Positions 3,607 through 64,000 of a DNA stretch of 64,000 bases are shown in pieces. The stretch spans positions 1 through 64,000 of the forward strand of contig NZ_AFOY02000016.1 of the NCBI RefSeq assembly GCF_000217955.3. Direction: 5' to 3'. Under the pieces are notes generated by a model. That model was not told where the DNA came from. It saw only the letters and a list, made by a program, of their open reading frames with translations, and did not search any database. The position numbers and the translations under genes were made by a program. This DNA comes from Pseudomonas fluorescens HK44. GTDB lineage: Bacteria; Pseudomonadota; Gammaproteobacteria; Pseudomonadales; Pseudomonadaceae. Every line of letters starts with the position of its first letter. Position 1 is the first letter of the stretch.

Positions 3607-5301
3607 ATGCACAGTTATGACTATTGGCTGATCCTTGCGTTCTTCGCCATGGTGCTGGTTCCGGCACCGTTCCTGGGAAGGTTCTACTACAAGGTGATGG
3701 AAGGCCAGCGCACCTGGCTGACACCGATCCTCGGACCGGTGGAGCGCGGTTGTTATCGCGTGGCCGGGGTCGACCCGCAGAGCGAACAGAGTTGGCAAAA
3801 ATACACCCTGGCGTTGCTCGCGTTTAACCTCGCGGGTTTTTTGCTGTTGTTCGCGATCCTGTTGTTTCAGGACTACTTGCCACTCAACCCGCAAAACCTG
3901 CCGGGGCAGGAGTGGACGCAGGCGTTCAACACTGCCGTCAGCTTCATGACCAACACCAACTGGCAGTCCTACAGCGGTGAAGCGTCCCTGAGCTACCTGA
4001 GCCAGATGATCGGCCTCACCGTGCAGAACTTTGTCAGCGCCGCCACCGGCCTGGCCGTGCTGGTTGCCTTGTGTCGCGGCATCGGTCGCAAATCGGCACA
4101 AACCCTGGGCAACTTCTGGGTCGACATGACCCGCGCTACGCTCTACGGCCTGTTGCCGCTGTGCCTGTTGCTGGCGTTGTATCTGGTTTGGCAGGGCGTG
4201 CCGCAAACATTCGCCCATTACGTGAATGCGCTGACGATGCAAGGTGTGGATCAAGTGATTCCGCTGGGTCCTGCGGCCAGCCAGATTGCGATCAAGCAAC
4301 TGGGCACTAATGGCGGTGGTTTCTTCGGCGTCAACTCGGCGCACCCGTTCGAGAACCCGAACGCCTGGAGCAACCTGGTTGAAATGGGATCGATCATTCT
4401 GATCCCGGTGGCGCTGGTGTTTACCTTCGGCCATTACGTCAAGGACCTGCGTCAGAGCCGGGCGATCATCGCCTGCATGCTCGCGCTGTTTCTGATCGGT
4501 GGTGCGGTGTCGCTGTGGGCTGAATACCAGCCGAACCCGACCCTGAACAACGTCGCGGTTGAACAGACTGCACCGCTGGAAGGCAAGGAAGCACGCTTCG
4601 GTACCACGGCGACCGTACTCTGGTCGGTGACGACCACCGCGGCCTCCAACGGCTCGGTCAACGGTATGCATGACAGCCTCAACCCGCTGAGCGGCATGGT
4701 CGCGCTGATCAACATGATGGTCGGCGAAGTAATCTTCGGCGGCGTCGGCGCCGGCCTCTATGGCATGTTGCTCAATGTGCTGATCGCGGTGTTCCTCGCC
4801 GGTCTGATGATCGGACGCACACCGGAATACCTCGGCAAGAAACTGCAAGCCAAGGAAGTCCAGTTGCTGGTGGTGACCTTGCTGGTGATGCCGATTGGCG
4901 TGCTGGTATTGGGTGCGATTGCGGCGAGCCTGCCTGGCCCTGCGGGAACGATCAGCAACCCCGGCCCCCATGGTTTTAGCCAGTTGCTGTACGCCTACAC
5001 CTCCGCCAGTGCCAACAACGGTTCGGCATTCGGCGGCCTGAACGCGAACACGCCATTCCATAACCTGATGCTGGGCCTGGGCATGTTGATCGGGCGCTTC
5101 GGCTACATCCTCCCGGTACTGGCCCTGGCCGGCAGCCTGGCGATGAAGAAAACCGCGCCGATTGGCCAGAACAGCTTCCCGACCCACGGCCCGCTGTTCG
5201 TGACGTTGCTGACGGTGACCATTTTGCTGGTGGGGGGGCTGACCTTCCTGCCGACCCTGGCGTTGGGGCCTATCGCTGAACACTTGAGCCTAGGCTTCTG
5301 A
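3607..5301 (+). CDS. kdpA: Potassium-transporting ATPase subunit KdpA
   Basis: 564 residues, the usual length. KdpA is the channel-like, potassium-binding subunit of the Kdp pump, related to K+ transporters with four M-P-M repeats. Filter-like segments include [52 protein letters not shown] and [14 protein letters not shown]. About ten membrane spans. The long antisense frame over this gene is a codon-bias shadow. KdpB follows 8 bases later. Confidence 0.97.
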
Positions 5302-5309
5302 GGGATTTG

Positions 5310-7391
5310 ATGATGAATATGCCCGTTCGTGTATCGAAAAAAACCGCGCCGCACGCTGTGCCGGCGCAACCTGTCGAGCAACCGAAAACCGCGATCTCGG
5401 CCCTGTGGCGGCCGGCGCTGGTGCAAGCCTTCGTCAAGCTTGACCCACGGCAGTTGAAACGCTCGCCGGTGATGTTGGTGGTCGAGTTGACCGCGATCCT
5501 CACCACCGTGTTGTGCGTGATTCCAGATCCGGCAGTGCCGACTTTTGTCGCGGCGCAAATTGCGCTGTGGCTGTGGTTCACCGTGTTGTTCGCAAACTTC
5601 GCTGAAGCCCTGGCCGAAGGTCGCGGCAAGGCTCGCGCCGACAGCCTCAAGGCCGGCAGCGAAGGCTTGAGCGCTCGGCGTAAAAAAGCCGATGGCAGCT
5701 TTCAGGTAGTGCCAGCGGTCAGCCTGCGCAAAGGCGATGTGGTTCGCGTCGAAGCCGGCGAGATGATTCCCGGTGACGGCGAGGTGATCGAAGGCATTGC
5801 CGCGGTCAACGAAGCAGCGATTACCGGTGAGTCCGCGCCAGTGATTCGCGAGTCTGGCGGCGACCGTTCGGCGGTCACCGGCAACACTCGACTGGTGTCT
5901 GACTGGTTGCTGGTGCGCATTACCGCGAACCCAGGTGAATCGACGCTGGATCGCATGATCGCGCTGGTGGAAGGCGCCAAGCGCCAGAAAACCCCGAACG
6001 AAGTGGCGCTGGATATCCTGCTGATCGGCCTGACCATGATCTTCCTGGTGGTGGTCGTGACCTTGCAGCCGTTCGCCCACTTCGCCAACGGCAACCTGCC
6101 GCTGGTGTTTCTGGTGGCGTTGCTGGTGACGCTGATTCCAACCACCATCGGCGGCTTGTTGTCGGCCATCGGTATCGCCGGCATGGACCGTCTGGTGCGG
6201 TTGAACGTGATCGCCAAATCCGGCCGTGCGGTGGAAGCGGCGGGCGACGTGCACGTGTTGCTGCTGGACAAGACCGGCACCATCACTTTCGGTAACCGTC
6301 GGTGCACCGCGATTTATGCAGCACCGGGTGTCAGTGCCAAGGAGCTGGCGGAAGGCGCGCTGTTCGCTTCGCTGGCCGACGACACGGCCGAAGGCAAGTC
6401 AATCGTCGAGTACCTGCGTGGACTTTATCCACAGGCTGAACCGTCCGCCGAGATGCTGACCGTTGTACCGTTCAGTGCCGAAACCCGCTTGTCCGGCGTT
6501 GACTATCAGGGTCGGGTCTACCGTAAAGGTGCGGTGGATTCGGTGCTGGCCTTCATCGGCCTGACTCGTGCCGAGATACTGCCGGCGATGTCCCGGGAAA
6601 TCGACAAGATCGCCCAAAGCGGCGGTACGCCATTGCTGGTGTGTGCCGAGGGTAAGTTGCTCGGTGCGATCCACCTCAAGGACGTGGTCAAGCCGGGCAT
6701 TCGCGAGCGTTTCGCCGAGCTGCGCAAGCTGGGGATTCGCACGGTCATGGTGACCGGCGATAACCCGCTGACCGCGGCGGCGATTGCCGCTGAAGCCGGT
6801 GTCGATGACGTGTTGGCCGAAGCGACGCCGGAGAAGAAACTCGCCCGCATTCGTCACGAGCAGAACGACGGTCGTCTGGTCGCCATGTGCGGTGACGGTG
6901 CCAACGACGCACCGGCTCTGGCACAGGCTGACGTCGGCATGGCGATGAACGACGGGACGCAGGCCGCGCGTGAAGCGGCGAACATGGTCGACCTCGACAG
7001 CGATCCGACCAAGCTGCTGGACGTAGTGCAGATCGGTAAAGAGTTGCTGGTGACCCGCGGCGCGTTGACGACGTTTTCCATCGCCAACGACGTGGCCAAG
7101 TACTTCGCCATCTTGCCGGCGCTGTTTGCGGCGATCTACCCGCAACTGGGCGTGCTGAACATCATGCACCTGAGCAGTCCGCAGAGCGCGATTCTCTCGG
7201 CCATCGTCTTCAACGCCTTGATCATCGTCGGACTGATCCCGTTGGCCCTGCGCGGGGTACGTGTCCAGGCCGCGAGCGCTGCACACCTGCTACGTCGCAA
7301 CCTGTTGATCTACGGCGTGGGCGGCATCGTGGTGCCATTCGTGGGCATCAAGCTGATCGACATGCTGCTGACCGCACTGCACTTGGTGTAA
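5310..7391 (+). CDS. kdpB: Potassium-transporting P-type ATPase subunit KdpB
   Basis: About 693 residues. KdpB hydrolyses ATP to drive potassium uptake. The phosphorylated Asp of DKTGT is near residue 319, the actuator motif TGES is in [10 protein letters not shown], and the hinge motif is [10 protein letters not shown] followed by [16 protein letters not shown]. An ATG at 5310 or 5313 is preferred over the TTG at 5307 because a GAGGG (5300-5304) lies upstream. A REPIN in the 152-base gap after it separates kdpB from kdpC. Confidence 0.97.
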
Positions 7392-7418
7392 CGGTGTAAC
7401 GCGAGCGCTGCGCGCTCG

Positions 7419-7483
7419 ATCGCGGGCAAGCCTTGCTCCCACGGAATCACGCAGGACCGTAGGAGCAAGGCTTGCCCGCGATG
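7419..7483. repeat. REPIN, REP type 2 (TCGCGGGCAAGCCTTGCTCC)
   Basis: ATCGCGGGCAAGCCTTGCTCC at 7419-7439 is mirrored by GGAGCAAGGCTTGCCCGCGAT near 7462-7482, with about 22 bases between. It lies inside the kdp operon between kdpB and kdpC and can form a long hairpin in the transcript. Confidence 0.9.
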
Positions 7484-7543
7484 AACGCAACGCGGTGCAG
7501 CTGACAGACCGCTGTATTTGTTTTCCGATTCGAGGGTTTTGAA

Positions 7544-8089
7544 ATGTCTACTATGATTCGTCCGGCCTTGAGCCTGCTTGTCCTGATGACCCTGATCACC
7601 GGCGTCGCTTATCCACTGGTGGTAACGGGTGTTGCCCAGGTCGCGTTCCCTGATCAGGCCAATGGCAGCCTGGTGCGTGACACCGATGGCAAGGTGCGCG
7701 GCTCGTCCCTGATTGCCCAGGATTTTGTCGGTGATGCGTGGTTCCATCCACGGCCATCGGCGGGCGCATTTGCGACCGTATCGAGCAGTGCGAGCAACCT
7801 GGCACCGAGTAATCCGGCGCTCGCGACCCGGGTGATCGACGATGCCAACAAACTGCTGGTGCCAGGCCAGGGGCCAGTGCCCTTGGCGTTGCTGACCACC
7901 TCTGGCAGCGGCCTTGATCCACACTTGCCTCCGGCGGCAATTGCCTATCAACTGGCGCGGGTTGCGGCGGCGCGCAACCTGCCGATATCGACGGTCGAGC
8001 AGTTGATGGATGCGCACATCGAGCAACCGTTGGTGGGCCCTCCGGTGGTGAATGTGCTGGAACTGAACATCGCGCTGGAGAAGTTGTAA
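7544..8089 (+). CDS. kdpC: Potassium-transporting ATPase subunit KdpC
   Basis: 181 residues, the normal size. One N-terminal membrane span ([20 protein letters not shown]) and a periplasmic domain with the typical [28 protein letters not shown] and [13 protein letters not shown] motifs. It completes the KdpFABC pump and is thought to assist potassium delivery or ATP affinity. REPINs on both sides separate it from kdpB and kdpD. Confidence 0.97.
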
Positions 8090-57445: not shown

Positions 57446-60400
57446 CTACACGTTGGCGTGATGACGGATCTGTCGTTGTAGCGCCTGCTCCAGCTCAAGC
57501 ATGGCGTGCTCTACGCCTTTGCAGCGGGCCTCGAGTTGGTCCGCACCGATGTTCTCATGACATACGCGCTCAAGCGCTTCGCAGCCGTCGATAAGCTTTG
57601 AGGCCTGAACGATACGGGCCGCACCTTTGATTTTGTGCGCCATATCGATGAAGGCTTGCGGCCCGCTTGCAGGTGGCAGTGCGAGGAGTTCCTGGCGGTC
57701 GAGGCGATTGCTGTTGAGCAGTTCGGCGAGCAAGCGCTGAACCAGTTTTGGATCGCCGCCGGTGAGTAACTGCAAGCCGTCCAGGTTAAAGGCTTGATCG
57801 TCAATGATCGGCTTGAGTGCTTCCAGTCGCTGGCCCAGCGCGGGCAGGCTGATGGGTTTGAACAGGCAATCGTTCATGCCTGCCTGTCGGCATCGCTGTT
57901 TTTCCTCCGGTTGAGCATTGGCGGTAAAGCCAAGCACCGTACAGGGCGGGCGCTGCTCATCGTGCTCGGTCTTGCGGATGGCACGGGTGAGTTCGTAGCC
58001 ATTCATCACTGGCATGTTGCAGTCTGCAATCACCAGGTCGAAATGGCCTTCTTTCCATGCCTGGAAACCTGCCTCACCGTTGTTGGCCGTGACGGACCGA
58101 TGCCCCAGAAAGCCGAGTTGCTGGCACATGAGCAAGCGATTCGCGGGATGGTCGTCGACCACCAGCACGTTCAGGGTGATCGTGGCGTTCGCGATGACCG
58201 GTTGTGGGGTGTCCAGCATCAGGGCGTCTGGCAGCACGGCCATCGGCAATGAAATCCGGACCTGAGTGCCGATCCCGGGCGAACTGGTCAGTTGCACGCA
58301 ACCACCCATCATTTCGCACAGGTTGCGGCTGATCACCAACCCCAATCCAGCGCCGCTTCTGGCCAAATGCCCGCTGTTATCGGCCTGACTGAAAGGTTCG
58401 AACAAGCGTCGCTGATCGTCTTCGCTGATGCCGATTCCGCTGTCATTGACCCACAACTCCATCTGGAGGCTGCCGGGCTCCGAGGCCGGTTGCAGATTGA
58501 CCTTGATCGTCACCTGGCCGTGCTCGGTAAACTTGATGGCATTACTGATCAGGTTGGACAGTATCTGTTTGAAGCGCAGGGGGTCGATCAATACATCGGG
58601 CTGTTCAGCGCTGGTGGGGTGCTCCAGCACGAGACAGAGGTTTTTTTGCCGGGCCAATCCATCGAAAACCCGCACGACCGATTCAATCGTCTCGCCAAGG
58701 TTCACCCGCTCTGGCGCCAGGCTCAAATGGCCAGACTCGATTCGGGCAATATCGAGTATGTCGCCAATCAACTCCAGCATGTCCTTGGCCGAGCTATAGG
58801 CCACTTCGATAGCCGGCCGATCCAGATGACCCTGATCGGCCCGTTTCAATGTCAGTTCGAGCATGCCGATCACCGCATTCATCGGCGTGCGGATTTCATG
58901 ACTCATGGTGGCCAGGAAGGTGCTCTTGGCGCGATTGGCTTTGTCCGCCTGTTCTTTGGCGGACCTGAGCTCATCAAAAAGCTGCCGTCGTTCGCTGATG
59001 TCGATCCAGCCTCCAATGATCCCCTGGACCTCACCCGTCGAGTCCCGATAGGGAAGAATCCAGTGATAGATCGTCAGCCTTTTCCGGCCAATGTGCAGGG
59101 GGCGGTCGAGAATCAACGGGACACCTTCGGCCACCACACGCTGGTAGTCGGCCAGGTATTCCCTGGCTTCGAACTCATTGCTCATGGCGCCCTGCATGAG
59201 GTTTTTGCCAATCACGTCTTCGCGTTTGGCACAAAAGGCCTCCAGATAGCTGTCGTTACAACTTTGCAGCAGTCCTTCACGGTCCCGTACGTAGATGGGG
59301 TGAGGTGTACCGTTGACCAGCGTGCGCATGAATTCGAACTGGTCGTTGAGTGCGCGTTCTGCCTTCTGGCGTTGCTTGATCTGCCTGCGCATGTGGGCAT
59401 TCCAGGCCAGCGAAATCAGCAACAAAAGACCGCTGCCAATGACCAGTTGATAGAACAGGCGATGGTAGTTGCGCCAGGTGCTATTGGCGGTGCCCGTGTA
59501 GCCGCGCCAGCGGCTGTTGATTATTCCCAGCTCGTCCGGCGCAATGCTGAGCAGGGCTTTGTCGAGGATGGAGTGCAGTTCTGTAGCGCTGCGCGCGGTT
59601 GCCAGTGAAAACGCGGCTTGCTGTGTCCCGACAGTCGCGCTGATTTGCAATGCATCCTCGAACACTTGCGATGAAATGAAGTAGTTGGCAATCACCAATG
59701 AATTGACTGCGCCGTCGACCTGACCTTTGGCGAGTAACTCCACCGCGCTGAAACTGTCAGGCGTTTCAATCAACTGGATCGTCGGGTATGTGCGGTGCAG
59801 ATAGTCGAGGAGCGGATTGCCCTGAGTGATGGCGAGGCTCTTTCCATTCAATTGCTCAAGACTGATTGGGCTGGAGCTGCTCTTTCGGGTCAGTAGTACA
59901 AATGAATTTTCCAGGTAGGGCCGAGTGAAGCTCAATTGTGCCTCGCGTTCGGGGCTAGGAATCATCGCGCCAATCAGGTCAGCCTGGTTCCCTTTGACCT
60001 GGCTGATCATCTCGCTGTCACTTTGGCTGCGGTGAATCTCGAAGCGCAAACCGGTTCGAAGCCTGATCAGTTCGAGCAAGTCGGCGGTTATTCCCCGAAA
60101 GCTCTCGTCGGCGTCAAAGAACGTCAGCGGGGCGAAGGCATCGTTGACGACCACGCGAACAACGGGGTGCTGCGCAAGCCAGCGTTCCTCACGGTTGGTC
60201 AATTGCAGTTTGTGGTCAGTCAGAAGGATGTCGCTGCCCGCGCTCCAGCGTTTGGCAATGTTTTCCCGCTCGCCCGCGGGCATTTCCTTGAGTACAGCGT
60301 TGATGATTGCCAGCAGGTCCGGATTGTCCTTGCTGACCGCGAAGCTGAAGCCATAGGCCTCATGTTTGCCGAAGTTGGCCATCCGTATATTTTTCAGATA

Positions 60401-61075
60401 GCCCTTGTTGATCATGAAGTGGGTGGAAATGGTATCGCCAAGGAATACGTCTGCCTGGTCGAAGGCAACGGCATTGATCGCATTCTGGTAGGACGGGTAA
60501 GAGGTGATGATGGCCTTGGGGTATTGCGCCTTTACCTCTTCCAGCGGCAGATAGTGATAGACCATGCTCAAACGCATGTCGGCAAGACCTTCGGTCAATG
60601 ATCGGTTTTCTGCATTCCGAGTGACCAGAACCGGTTGATCTATGGCGTAGGGGGCAGACAGTACGATGCTGGAACGTCTTCCTTCAAAGCTATTGGCCGT
60701 TCCGAGCAGGTCGACGTCGCCGTTTTCGAGTGCTTCGATGGCGGCCTCTCGGGAGAGGTAACGACGGACCTTGATCGACAGGCCCAGGGATTGTGCTAGG
60801 ACCCCTGCGTAATCAGCCGTGAAACCCTCATAGTCGTGACCGCTGATCGTTAAATCGAAAGGAGGGTAGTCAGGCGCGGAGGTCCCCAGGACCAGTTCGC
60901 GCTTGTTGTGCAGCCACAGCCGTTGTGATTTATCCAGTTGAACGTCCATGTAACCTGCCGTTGAGCGACTGAGCAGCGTGTAATTTCCGATTCCGCTGTC
61001 TGCTCCGGACACAGAGGTGCTCAGACATAAACCTGCACTCAAATACAATAAATAGTCCTTTAAACACCTGGGCAT
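57446..61075 (-). CDS. BvgS/EvgS/RocS-type phosphorelay sensor kinase
   Basis: 1209 residues. Signal peptide, two tandem periplasmic SBP_bac_3 (Venus-flytrap) domains (about 60-280 and 305-525), one membrane span (about 545-565), PAS (about 590-700), HisKA with His726, HATPase with GAGLGLVI, receiver with Asp1018 in ADCNMPVMNGYE and C-terminal HPt with His1147 in MAHKIKGAAR. The relay His-Asp-His passes to the LuxR-type regulator upstream. ATG 61075 is chosen over a GTG at 61087 that overlaps the regulator stop. Confidence 0.94.
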   Translation of the reverse strand: MPRCLKDYLLYLSAGLCLSTSVSGADSGIGNYTLLSRSTAGYMDVQLDKSQRLWLHNKRELVLGTSAPDYPPFDLTISGHDYEGFTADYAGVLAQSLGLSIKVRRYLSREAAIEALENGDVDLLGTANSFEGRRSSIVLSAPYAIDQPVLVTRNAENRSLTEGLADMRLSMVYHYLPLEEVKAQYPKAIITSYPSYQNAINAVAFDQADVFLGDTISTHFMINKGYLKNIRMANFGKHEAYGFSFAVSKDNPDLLAIINAVLKEMPAGERENIAKRWSAGSDILLTDHKLQLTNREERWLAQHPVVRVVVNDAFAPLTFFDADESFRGITADLLELIRLRTGLRFEIHRSQSDSEMISQVKGNQADLIGAMIPSPEREAQLSFTRPYLENSFVLLTRKSSSSPISLEQLNGKSLAITQGNPLLDYLHRTYPTIQLIETPDSFSAVELLAKGQVDGAVNSLVIANYFISSQVFEDALQISATVGTQQAAFSLATARSATELHSILDKALLSIAPDELGIINSRWRGYTGTANSTWRNYHRLFYQLVIGSGLLLLISLAWNAHMRRQIKQRQKAERALNDQFEFMRTLVNGTPHPIYVRDREGLLQSCNDSYLEAFCAKREDVIGKNLMQGAMSNEFEAREYLADYQRVVAEGVPLILDRPLHIGRKRLTIYHWILPYRDSTGEVQGIIGGWIDISERRQLFDELRSAKEQADKANRAKSTFLATMSHEIRTPMNAVIGMLELTLKRADQGHLDRPAIEVAYSSAKDMLELIGDILDIARIESGHLSLAPERVNLGETIESVVRVFDGLARQKNLCLVLEHPTSAEQPDVLIDPLRFKQILSNLISNAIKFTEHGQVTIKVNLQPASEPGSLQMELWVNDSGIGISEDDQRRLFEPFSQADNSGHLARSGAGLGLVISRNLCEMMGGCVQLTSSPGIGTQVRISLPMAVLPDALMLDTPQPVIANATITLNVLVVDDHPANRLLMCQQLGFLGHRSVTANNGEAGFQAWKEGHFDLVIADCNMPVMNGYELTRAIRKTEHDEQRPPCTVLGFTANAQPEEKQRCRQAGMNDCLFKPISLPALGQRLEALKPIIDDQAFNLDGLQLLTGGDPKLVQRLLAELLNSNRLDRQELLALPPASGPQAFIDMAHKIKGAARIVQASKLIDGCEALERVCHENIGADQLEARCKGVEHAMLELEQALQRQIRHHANV

Positions 61076-61083
61076 CCTGTCTC

Positions 61084-61710
61084 TCACACTAGCGCGTTAC
61101 GTTTTGCCATCTCGATAAGTTCTACCAGGGATTTGGCCTTGAGTTTTTGCATGAGTCTTTTTTTGTAGGTGCTGACGGTCTTGTTGCTGAGGAACATGCC
61201 TTTGGCAATTTCCTTATTGGTACGACCCTGGGCGAACAGTTGCAGGACCATCAGTTCGCGATCATTGACGGACTTGAACAAATCCAGTTCAGCGCAGAGC
61301 GCTTCGTCCCCGCGAACCGGGTTCAAGGCCTGGCTGGGGAAGTAGTTGTAACCGGACAGCACGGCTTTGATGGCACTGAGCAGTTCGCTGAGATCTTCCT
61401 GCTTGCAGACATAACCGGAGGCCCCGGACTGCATACAGCGGATGGCGAACAGTGTTGGGCTCTGGGCCGTCAACACCAGTGTTTTCAGCGGGGTACTCAT
61501 TGCATTGAAGCGGGAGAGAACTTCCAGCCCGTCGAGTTTAGGAATGCTGATGTCAAGAATAATCAGGTCGGGCATGCATTCGCGAACCATCTGCATCGCA
61601 TCGACTCCGTTGTCGGCTTCACCGACTACTTTGTAACCTTCATGTTCCAGCAACATACGAACTGCAAGGCGAATGACGGGGTGATCGTCGACAATAAAAA
61701 CTGAGTTCAT
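61084..61710 (-). CDS. LuxR-type response regulator (BvgA/EvgA/RocA-like)
   Basis: 208 residues. Receiver with Asp53 in ILDISIPKLDG and a NarL/LuxR helix-turn-helix (about 145-205) with LFAQGRTNKEIAKGMFLSNKTVSTYKKRLMQKL. It is the likely output of the kinase encoded 8 bases downstream. MNSVFIVDDHPVIR fits the usual start at 61710; 61716 is also possible. A palindrome lies about 85 bases upstream. Confidence 0.92.
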   Translation of the reverse strand: MNSVFIVDDHPVIRLAVRMLLEHEGYKVVGEADNGVDAMQMVRECMPDLIILDISIPKLDGLEVLSRFNAMSTPLKTLVLTAQSPTLFAIRCMQSGASGYVCKQEDLSELLSAIKAVLSGYNYFPSQALNPVRGDEALCAELDLFKSVNDRELMVLQLFAQGRTNKEIAKGMFLSNKTVSTYKKRLMQKLKAKSLVELIEMAKRNALV

Positions 61711-61788
61711 AATCATGTCCCATACGTGCGCAAATAAAGCGAGCACCTTAGCTCAGATAAGTGCGTTGACACATGAACTGACGGGGCT

Positions 61789-61816
61789 GTAGGTGCAATA
61801 TAGGACATGTCCTACA
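61789..61816. promoter_or_regulatory. Palindrome upstream of the two-component operon
   Basis: TAGGACATGTCCTA (61801-61814) is a perfect 14-base palindrome; it ends CCTACA (61811-61816) and a mirrored TGTAGG stands at 61789-61794. EvgA and BvgA bind inverted TTCCTACA- or TTTCCTA-like sites, so an autoregulatory site is plausible. The assignment is inferred. Confidence 0.5.
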
Positions 61817-61871
61817 TTAAAAGAGGCATCGGACTACGCATGAACTAGGTTTGTGAGGAAGAGCGAGAATA

Positions 61872-62003
61872 TTAGTCGGGCATGTAGGTGCCCTTATTCA
61901 GGGTGGATATATGCTTTTGCAATAAGTGCCAGATCTCTGTTTTCTGGTGCGTGGTAATACTGAGGCTTCTCTGTTTGTCGTGAGGTGTCTGAAGGTTTTC
62001 CAT
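61872..62003 (-). CDS. Possible 43-residue small protein
   Basis: The frame starts MENLQTPHDKQRSLSITTHQ and continues KTEIWHLLQKHISTLNKGTY to MPD. Its ATG shares one base with the TAA of the receiver gene (TAATG), the usual sign of translational coupling. It has no strong ribosome site of its own and matches nothing I know. It could also be a decayed C-terminal extension of the receiver. No other gene covers 61711-62002. Confidence 0.35.
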   Translation of the reverse strand: MENLQTPHDKQRSLSITTHQKTEIWHLLQKHISTLNKGTYMPD

Positions 62004-62410
62004 TAATAGTGTTTGTTTGTAAGGTCGGGAAGGGTCAATAAGTTTATAAATTCAGATTGTTTCAGCGGTTTCGCCAAATAACCCAGTAATGGCAGTCGTT
62101 GCTCGTGTGCGTTTTTTTTCAAGGTGTCCAGTTCGATTGAGTCAAGGCTGCTCAGGATGATTGCCTGTTGTATCAGGTGCTGGTGGCTGGCAATACCAAT
62201 CAGGTCAAGACCGGAGAGGTCTGGCAGGCATTGATCGCACAGCAGTATTTCGAAGGGGCGTTGCACTTGTATCATCGTCTGTAATGCATTTTCGGCGTTA
62301 TCTACGGCGGTGACCTGAGTAAAACCGTAACTTTCAAGTAAGTATTGGGTTGCTTTCAGCTGAAAAGGATGGTCCTCCACCAGCATGATGCGCAGATCGT
62401 AGTTGAACAT
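62003..62410 (-). CDS. Stand-alone receiver protein, RocR-like
   Basis: 135 residues, one receiver domain: acidic residues in VEDHPFQ, Asp59 in LLCDQCLPDLSGLDLI, IILSSLDSIE and the Lys in LGYLAKPLKQSEFINLL. The C-terminal half resembles the receiver of P. aeruginosa RocR (ILSS and the GxLxKP block), but no EAL phosphodiesterase domain follows. It may modulate the kinase by competing for phosphate. GGAAAG sits before ATG 62410; ATG 62422 is possible. Confidence 0.8.
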   Translation of the reverse strand: MFNYDLRIMLVEDHPFQLKATQYLLESYGFTQVTAVDNAENALQTMIQVQRPFEILLCDQCLPDLSGLDLIGIASHQHLIQQAIILSSLDSIELDTLKKNAHEQRLPLLGYLAKPLKQSEFINLLTLPDLTNKHY

Positions 62411-62596
62411 ATAGCTTTCCATGAGGATGGTCGAACTGCGGTGTGCGTCAGAAACAACCTTGTCGATTTAATCAGTACTGTCTTGTTTGCCATTGCTGGA
62501 GTTCTATCAGCTGTAAGGCCCCCAATCCTGTTGTTCAGGATAGAGTGATTATTTCGTGTGTATATAGAGCAAACGATCAGTTTACTCTGCACAGGA

Positions 62597-62622
62597 TGTA
62601 GGGGGATTCTCCCGGTACTACA
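62597..62622. promoter_or_regulatory. Dyad upstream of the receiver gene
   Basis: TGTA (62597) and TACA (62619) flank GGGGGATTCTCCC, itself 10 of 13 bases symmetric. It lies in the 266-base gap between dgt and the receiver gene and may be an operator. The binding protein is unknown. Confidence 0.35.
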
Positions 62623-62676
62623 AAGTATTGGGGGGATCAGCCGTCACGGAATATTCCGGGCGACTGATCGATTGAT

Positions 62677-64000
62677 TTAGTGGTGGCTGGAGCGTCCGGT
62701 CATTTCCAGTGCCATTTCGCTGGCATAGCTGTCGGTCATGCCGGCGATGAAGTCGATCATGCGTAAAAACGAGTTATGCAAAGGGCCGTGCGGGTCGGGT
62801 GCATTATTGCCCAGCAGATCGAGTATGCGCTGGTTCTTGAACGAAGCCGTGCGACCACCGTGCTGTTCCAGTGCCGCCCCACAAAAGCCATTCAGCAGAA
62901 TTTCCAGTGTGGTGTAAGCGCCGATTTCATGCAGGGTTTTGCGTTTGTCCTGGAAGATTTTTTTACGCGCCATGTCCTTGGCATTCAGTACGCAACGCTT
63001 GGCGGGCCCGTGCATGTGTTCTACCAGATCGCCGTGAAGGGTGCCGGCCAATAGCGCGTCCTGCTGCTCGACGAATGCTCGTGCTGCAGCGTTGGTCAGG
63101 TGCTCGATGGCTTTGCCGCGAAGAATTGCCAGTTTGCGGCGACGCGAGTCATCGGGGCCGAGTTGACGGTAGGTTTCCGGCAGATCATCACCGACCAGGC
63201 CGAGCAACAGGGATTCCACCTCGGCGTACTCCAGAAGCTCCATCTCCAGGCCATCTTCAAGGTCGATCAAGGCGTAGCAGATGTCGTCGGCGGCTTCCAT
63301 CAGGTAGACCAGAGGATGTCGGGCCCAGCGCTGTTCCTCGAGTTGAGGCAGGCCGAGTTTCTGCGCAATCTGCTCCAGCAGGGGCAGTTCACTTTGATAG
63401 CAACCGAACTTGTGTTTTTTGTAACCCAGCGAATCGGCATGGCGCGCGGTCCACGGATATTTCAGATAGGTGCCCAGCGTTGCGTAAGTCAGGCGTGTGC
63501 CGCCGTCAAACTGGTGGTATTCCAGTTGGGTCAGGACCCTGAAGCCCTGGGCGTTGCCCTCGAAGTTGAGGAAATCGTTGCGTTCGACTTCGCTCATGGC
63601 GTCCAGCCAGCCTTTATCCGCGGCTTGTTGGAACCAGTAGCGGATGGCGTCTTCACCCGAGTGGCCAAAGGGTGGGTTGCCAATGTCGTGGGCCAGGCAC
63701 GCGGACTGCACCACCATGCCCAGATCGCTAGGCTCGCACCAGTCGGGCAGGGCGCTGCGGATGGTTTCACCGACGCGCATACCCAATGAGCGCCCCACGC
63801 AACTGACTTCCAGTGAGTGGGTCAGGCGCGTGTGGATATGGTCATTGCTGGACACCGGGTGGACCTGGGTCTTGCGCCCAAGACGGCGGAAGGCTCCGGA
63901 GAAAATGACCCGGTCGTGGTCTTTATGGAAGGGGCTGCGACCGAGCTCTTCCGGGCTATGCAGCGGTTTTCCGAGGCGTTCACGATTAAGCAGGGTATGC
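62677..64000 (-). CDS. dGTP triphosphohydrolase-like protein (HD), 5' end beyond window
   Basis: 441 codons visible, with the frame open to the right edge ([19 protein letters not shown] is the first visible part), so only a few N-terminal residues are missing. HD-domain metal residues: [13 protein letters not shown] and [33 protein letters not shown] is a dGTPase signature. It hydrolyses dNTPs to nucleoside and triphosphate. The size fits the shorter Dgt-like group (about 443 residues) rather than E. coli Dgt (505). Confidence 0.92.

Follow-up and report, generated by a model that had tools for sequence, protein, structure and literature searches.

A conserved stand-alone receiver beside a Roc/BvgAS-type sensor kinase and LuxR-type regulator in Pseudomonas, a possible competing acceptor of phosphoryl groups

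In this work, we describe a stand-alone receiver encoded in a 64,000-nucleotide stretch of the Pseudomonas fluorescens HK44 genome (hereafter the window), which looks like a real, conserved signalling protein able to accept phosphate and without any output part. We take it for a single-domain response regulator in a Roc/BvgAS-type relay and favour, at roughly even odds, the proposal that it serves there as a competing acceptor, or sink, for phosphoryl groups of the HPt domain of the neighbouring kinase; such a role fits the anatomy of the locus. The receiver gene occupies a fixed place in a conserved gene order, its active site is intact, it evolves under purifying selection, and in some relatives it occurs together with a gene for a RocR-type protein that retains its EAL domain. 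The partners in the relay were assigned by neighbourhood alone.

Table 1. Features of the locus (window coordinates)
Feature	Position	Strand	Remarks
dgt-like gene	62677..63999, continues past window edge	-	Conserved upstream neighbour of the receiver
Stand-alone receiver	62003..62410	-	135 aa when started at the conserved Met; with the ATG at 62422, 139 aa
43-codon frame	61872..62003	-	Judged a chance feature, outside the system
Palindrome TAGGACATGTCCTA	61801-61814		Upstream of luxR; candidate operator
Conserved block, mostly non-coding	61700..61852	-	Upstream of luxR; recurs in relatives
LuxR/NarL-type response regulator, EvgA/RocA-like	61084..61710	-	208 aa; Pfam Response_reg and GerE
Unorthodox sensor kinase	57446..61087	-	1213 aa; Pfam domains given in the text

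The genes of the locus run on the minus strand in the order dgt-like gene, receiver, LuxR-type regulator and sensor kinase (Table 1), and we take the first of these to be dgt (dGTPase). According to Pfam, the kinase consists of two SBP_bac_3 domains, PAS, HisKA, HATPase_c, a receiver (974-1088) and an HPt (1119-1204, at about 57476-57733 of the window). A Roc/BvgAS-type relay, in line with the Roc relay of the initial annotation, is thus supported, with an HPt-bearing unorthodox kinase and a LuxR-type regulator adjoining the receiver. EvgS and EvgA are the top NCBIfam models for kinase and regulator, and the architecture of the pair is that of BvgAS/EvgAS; however, both proteins score below the model cut-offs (518 bits against 1995 for EvgS, 169.5 bits against 251 for EvgA). 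The regulator has an alternative GTG start at 61746, which would give 220 aa. BvgAS/EvgAS systems are not known to carry a stand-alone receiver. The locus also resembles the Roc systems of P. aeruginosa (RocS1/RocA1/RocR and RocS2/RocA2), in which an SBP-type unorthodox HPt kinase is combined with a regulator of the LuxR type and has a RocR-type receiver for its second target, with the difference that the second target in the window is a receiver without EAL. With dgt as a neighbour, gene order may point to orthology with RocS2/RocA2. No RocR-type REC-EAL was found in the window's own cluster by open reading frames, Pfam or tblastn. A search of Rfam over 61000-62700 returned nothing at the gathering score, and promoter and terminator scans yielded hits at about chance level.

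The receiver matches Pfam Response_reg (PF00072) over residues 12-128 of 139 (2.4e-12; 47.4 bits against a gathering score of 30.2). Pfam finds no second domain, which bears out the earlier description of a receiver-only frame. Its phosphorylation residues are the acidic pair E16/D17, the phosphoacceptor D63, S91 and K118 (numbered from 62422), and none of the five varies among the 121 aligned receivers; the alignment used 121 of the 124 parsed rows, leaving out L045 (misparsed), L158 (another locus) and L160 (truncated receiver). Membership in PF00072 is therefore indicated both by the score above the gathering cut-off and by the intact acidic pair, Asp, Ser/Thr and Lys. Because residue 5 (62410) is occupied in 119 rows, 110 of them with Met, and residue 1 is filled in just 29 rows, 62410 appears a likelier start than 62422, in a comparison that may be biased by row starts chosen by script. 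An AlphaFold2 model built with three close sequences was too poor for a fold search (mean pLDDT 58.7); it has strands and helices ordered as in a receiver, but alpha3 is not built.

Receivers of this family are present in 123 of 298 Pseudomonas genomes (E <= 1e-15), in every case in a frame no longer than 244 codons and therefore too short for a REC-EAL protein of about 400. For gene order, we compared the loci of 120 of these 123 genomes together with three named loci; the three genomes outside the 120 are the window's own, G050 and G022, the last taken separately. The order and direction dgt-receiver-luxR-kinase are kept in 117 of the 123 loci, the exceptions being L042, L063, L068, L093, L153 and L158, and dgt lies upstream of and codirectional with the receiver in 121; conserved neighbours other than the relay genes and dgt were not seen in the loci compared. 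The receiver gene is under purifying selection, with dN/dS values of 0.053-0.391 over 18 pairs (17 at or below 0.23, one at 0.39). Among plasmids, only 31% matches turned up, in two Cupriavidus metallidurans records.

The LuxR regulator was found in 246 of 298 genomes at E <= 1e-85, a count that includes a paralogue with 67% identity. The window's own genome has such a regulator, 67% identical to that of the window (L311, contig C21:118231-118854, plus strand), with no kinase match among the open reading frames of 17 kb. We examined 19 loci without a full receiver, namely 17 whose genomes encode a close LuxR regulator but gave no receiver match, and those of G228 and G022. L237 has a partial receiver match, L221 and L235 have scraps, and the remaining 16 have none, with dgt-luxR gaps of 300-470 nt. 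The receiver gene thus decays in places, as also in L160, where an 82-codon frame is left. It is dispensable, since closely related LuxR-kinase pairs exist without it and retain the HPt (10 of 10 loci looked at). The HPt of receiver-less loci has a median identity of 54% to that of the window, against 62.6% (n 35) where the receiver is present and LuxR identity is comparable. As a mark of receiver loss, however, this divergence is not specific: the periplasmic part of the kinase follows the same trend (67% without the receiver, 74% with it), and the HPt median is 54% even among receiver-positive loci whose LuxR identity lies at 84-90%.

When 57 genomes were searched with a 741-nt DNA query, 19 gave matches, and the part of the query that recurs outside the receiver gene is the block adjoining luxR (Table 1). 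The palindrome within it, TAGGAN4TCCTA, is a candidate autoregulatory operator upstream of luxR. This motif occurs in 73 of 120 receiver-luxR gaps (the 120 of 124 loci in which luxR was found and the gap measured 100-450 nt) and in 7 of the 19 loci without a full receiver, where it stands 104 nt before luxR. It was not found in 15 loci of sister genera.

In the mechanism that we consider the likeliest, the HPt with which the kinase ends, a natural donor for receivers, would supply phosphoryl groups to both the LuxR regulator and the stand-alone receiver, and the receiver, having no output domain, would drain them and compete for them. Such competition would lower or sharpen activation of the LuxR regulator, and in lineages that keep RocR beside the receiver it would have the same effect on the c-di-GMP branch. 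Rhizobial CheY1 is a phosphate sink. Like CheY1 and PilH, for which the role has been proposed, the window's protein is a lone output-less receiver beside a multi-target kinase; unlike them it is not of the chemotaxis type, and its sink role is a proposal. PilH has been discussed as a possible sink (PMC5812489). In P. aeruginosa, where the roc2 locus carries the tags PA3044-PA3045, two-hybrid tests show the RocR receiver binding to the HPt domains of RocS1 and RocS2 alike (PMC3083521). RocR3 may have an impaired EAL, yet it retains part of its antagonism towards cup expression, through a mechanism that its authors leave to be determined (PMC12051241). In the literature searched we found no phosphotransfer or genetic experiments on any member of the family, and in its titles and abstract openings no description of a stand-alone receiver in a Roc locus.

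The main alternative is that the receiver has an output of its own by protein contact, so that the HPt-phosphorylated protein binds some effector or the kinase itself. We regard this as a real possibility, though clearly a lesser one than competition for phosphate. CheY, DivK and the EPS-activating single-domain regulators act by protein contact. In its favour, F20, Q21, L22, L93, L98, A105 and L116 are invariant in the 121-row alignment and lie outside the active site, although some of them may belong to the buried core. Second among the NCBIfam models for the receiver comes EpsW, which has a single domain itself (40.9 bits, with the cut-off at 200), and a 2025 paper reports a single-domain regulator that acts on an initiating phosphoglycosyl transferase (PMC12802240). 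The distribution of variation argues the other way. Over 119 rows, mean entropy is low at beta1 and the acidic pair (0.30), alpha1 (0.59), the beta3 loop (0.57) and beta5 (0.47), and high in the alpha2 region (1.78), alpha3 (1.37), alpha4 (2.09) and alpha5 (2.22). Variation therefore peaks in the helices alpha4 and alpha5, which commonly form the contact face; in the LuxR receiver next door these two exceed alpha1 by less (alpha1 0.22, alpha4 0.52, alpha5 0.37), with the qualification that the stand-alone receiver as a whole evolves faster than the adjoining LuxR regulator. Furthermore, of the neighbours only the relay and dgt were seen to be conserved in the loci compared. The conserved active site, alpha1, beta3 loop and beta5 would be compatible with, though no proof of, selection for docking on a phosphodonor and for phosphorylation, with no single constant partner for output; partners that change quickly could likewise explain why the output face varies.

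It has also to be considered that the receiver modulates the relay without phosphate, binding the kinase or its HPt and controlling it allosterically, with phosphorylation only secondary. This reading draws on a second relay in the window's own genome, where a pseudo-receiver of 144 aa (contig C14:15244-15675, plus strand; L312:7245-7679) lies upstream of another LuxR-EvgS-like pair and would represent its extreme form. Pfam does not recognise the pseudo-receiver, but hhalign aligns it with our receiver profile A1 at 96.9% over 86 columns. It is widespread in the genus: a search of 149 genomes found relatives of it in 98 (E <= 1e-6), in at least five of which (G020, G050, G068, G115 and G126) the best match is the window's own receiver family. 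Among the 30 best-scoring loci, the window's genome included, the phosphoacceptor position holds Asn in 29 and Ser in one, the Lys is absent from all 30 in a poorly aligned column, a LuxR regulator lies within the 1.5-kb flanks in 27, and a RocR-type EAL in four. In this family the Asn at the phosphoacceptor is the firm part of the sequence evidence, the loss of Lys less so. Hence a related stand-alone receiver in which Asp has become Asn is conserved before another LuxR-kinase pair, as control by binding would allow. For the window's receiver, the same explanation is improbable in view of five active-site residues invariant in 121 of 121 sequences, which pure binding would not need. Putting the two families together, we tentatively suggest that Pseudomonas BvgAS/Roc relays have a recurrent additional part, absent from the papers searched: a stand-alone receiver next to the LuxR regulator, in two versions, one a phosphorylatable competing acceptor and the other a phosphate-blind Asp-to-Asn mimic that would occupy the HPt.

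The initial annotation had called the window's protein a RocR-like receiver deprived of its EAL domain, and had suggested that the locus may have been rewired from c-di-GMP output towards a phosphate sink, or have decayed. The likeness holds insofar as the nearest receivers outside its own family, by family model and by profile, are of the RocR/PvrR type, many of which share with the stand-alone receivers an EDxPFQ start of alpha1. It is nevertheless a distant one: PvrR heads the NCBIfam matches, by its receiver part and with 50.1 bits, far below the equivalog cut-off of 580, and RocR itself (PDB 3sy8) is matched by phmmer only at E = 0.045. Profile A1, made from 32 receivers, was searched against 198 genomes of the family (19 genera) and 274 of the class. 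In the family it matches 35 genomes from five genera, 28 of them in short frames (genera g1, g30 and g33) and seven in frames of 407-499 codons, which are not stand-alone and of which two (L288 and L290) are REC-EAL by eye; in the class it found the window's own receiver and one REC-EAL-like frame. Of 17 wider loci taken from the sister genera g30 and g33, 15 were found to have a LuxR regulator of the window type, 16 the kinase and 14 dgt.

In four of the sister-genus loci (L292, L293, L294 and L303), a RocR-type REC-EAL gene stands directly before the stand-alone receiver, with a related LuxR-kinase pair, and within the window's genus one cluster (L314, genome G228) unites kinase, LuxR regulator, a REC-EAL protein of 426 aa and a stand-alone receiver of 137 aa. 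That the window's protein is a RocR deprived of its EAL is consequently not supported. Relatives with RocR-EAL at this place, which the initial annotation had named as a sign of decay, do exist, but decay does not follow from them because they also have the separate receiver. Downstream of the tandem genes in L292 lies a dCache-HAMP-HD_5 protein (5102-8068) that is perhaps a c-di-GMP phosphodiesterase. An EAL-YkuI_C gene adjoins dgt in another sister-genus locus (L295:584-1759), and many relatives likewise have EAL matches beyond dgt; in the window's genome, no EAL match was found in 9 kb around dgt.

In a tree of 62 receivers, all 33 stand-alone ones form one clade (100/99) spanning three genera, and RocR (3sy8) belongs to a group (99/96) that comprises the receivers of the tandem REC-EAL genes and three further ones. 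The 62 rows remain after removal of L003 (wrong frame) and L287 (short) and include, besides the window's receiver, only 16 of those in L038-L160 and 5 of the 30 PvrR-type loci L187-L216; 14 of the 20 REC-EAL loci L241-L260 were skipped, missed by a motif or length filter. Topology tests did not reject the joining of the stand-alone receivers with the RocR clade (p-AU 0.146), nor all REC-EAL proteins as one clade (p-AU 0.389; complementary split 0.384), so that the stand-alone clade may be nested among REC-EAL receivers or lie beside them, with loss of an EAL as one possible origin. Since the two kinds of protein co-occur as separate genes and the stand-alone receivers form one clade, the latter are a separate paralogue of the RocR-type receiver, an additional component of Roc-type systems and not a RocR cut short. 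An intact PvrR-type REC-EAL is moreover encoded elsewhere in the window's genome (664 bits against the cut-off of 580). Its cluster (L240, contig C9:44000-58000) holds two RcsC/PvrS-like kinases, the PvrR REC-EAL, an RcsB-like regulator and two divergent genes that we took by eye for a fimbrial subunit and chaperone.

That a RocR REC-EAL protein lost its EAL, leaving a receiver and a leftover frame, is accordingly very unlikely. The RocR-type genes at the same place in some sister-genus genomes lend this idea some colour, as does L297, where only a 54-residue match to a RocR-type EAL precedes the stand-alone receiver (7528-7683) and RocR seems to have decayed while the receiver stayed. The receiver gene itself is degraded in L160, L221 and L235, and a REC-only protein arising by insertion in rocR is reported for two P. 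aeruginosa strains (PMC12051241), which is a different thing from the window's receiver. On the other hand, the receiver is found next to REC-EAL genes, in a clade of its own across three genera, with an active site intact in the window's genus, purifying selection and frames of at most 244 codons in 123 genomes; between 61500 and 62700 no EAL remnant was detected (best tblastn E = 0.11), and neither an EAL fusion inside the stand-alone clade nor relaxed selection on it was seen.

With regard to the 43-codon frame, the TAATG overlap between the receiver stop and its ATG, as first described, is present in the sequence, but the coupled small gene inferred from it does not hold up, the frame being neither conserved nor longer than chance would give. 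The overlap exists only in the window and L138 among 124 parsed loci (the window included, L045 misparsed), and their peptides are unrelated. The peptide has no Pfam or NCBIfam match. The closest relatives, L038-L041, all lack the ATG and have indels in this stretch. When sequences are generated from the 295-nt gap by a first-order Markov model, 55% contain a closed frame of at least 43 codons (either strand; ATG, GTG or TTG starts), or 33% with ATG starts alone, and 25 of 120 receiver-luxR gaps have such a frame somewhere. The frame therefore appears to have arisen by chance. Its translation as a coupled small protein, suggested by the overlap and by a 63% tblastn match in L038, is scarcely credible when that match lies in a stretch with indels and no ATG, none of the other 122 related loci matches at E <= 1e-4, and 33-55% of the simulated gaps hold such a frame.

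Work on the Roc systems of P. aeruginosa counts RocA-type and RocR-type proteins as the targets of shared kinases. An output-less receiver that is conserved in many Pseudomonas beside the same kinase-regulator pair, and beside RocR in other lineages, would be a missing node of these networks. It would also separate competition for the HPt from degradation of c-di-GMP, which are hard to tell apart for RocR, and the pseudo-receiver family would offer a natural comparison of phosphate competition with mere occupancy. For Pseudomonas, the receiver probably tunes the sensor and its regulator by competing for phosphate.
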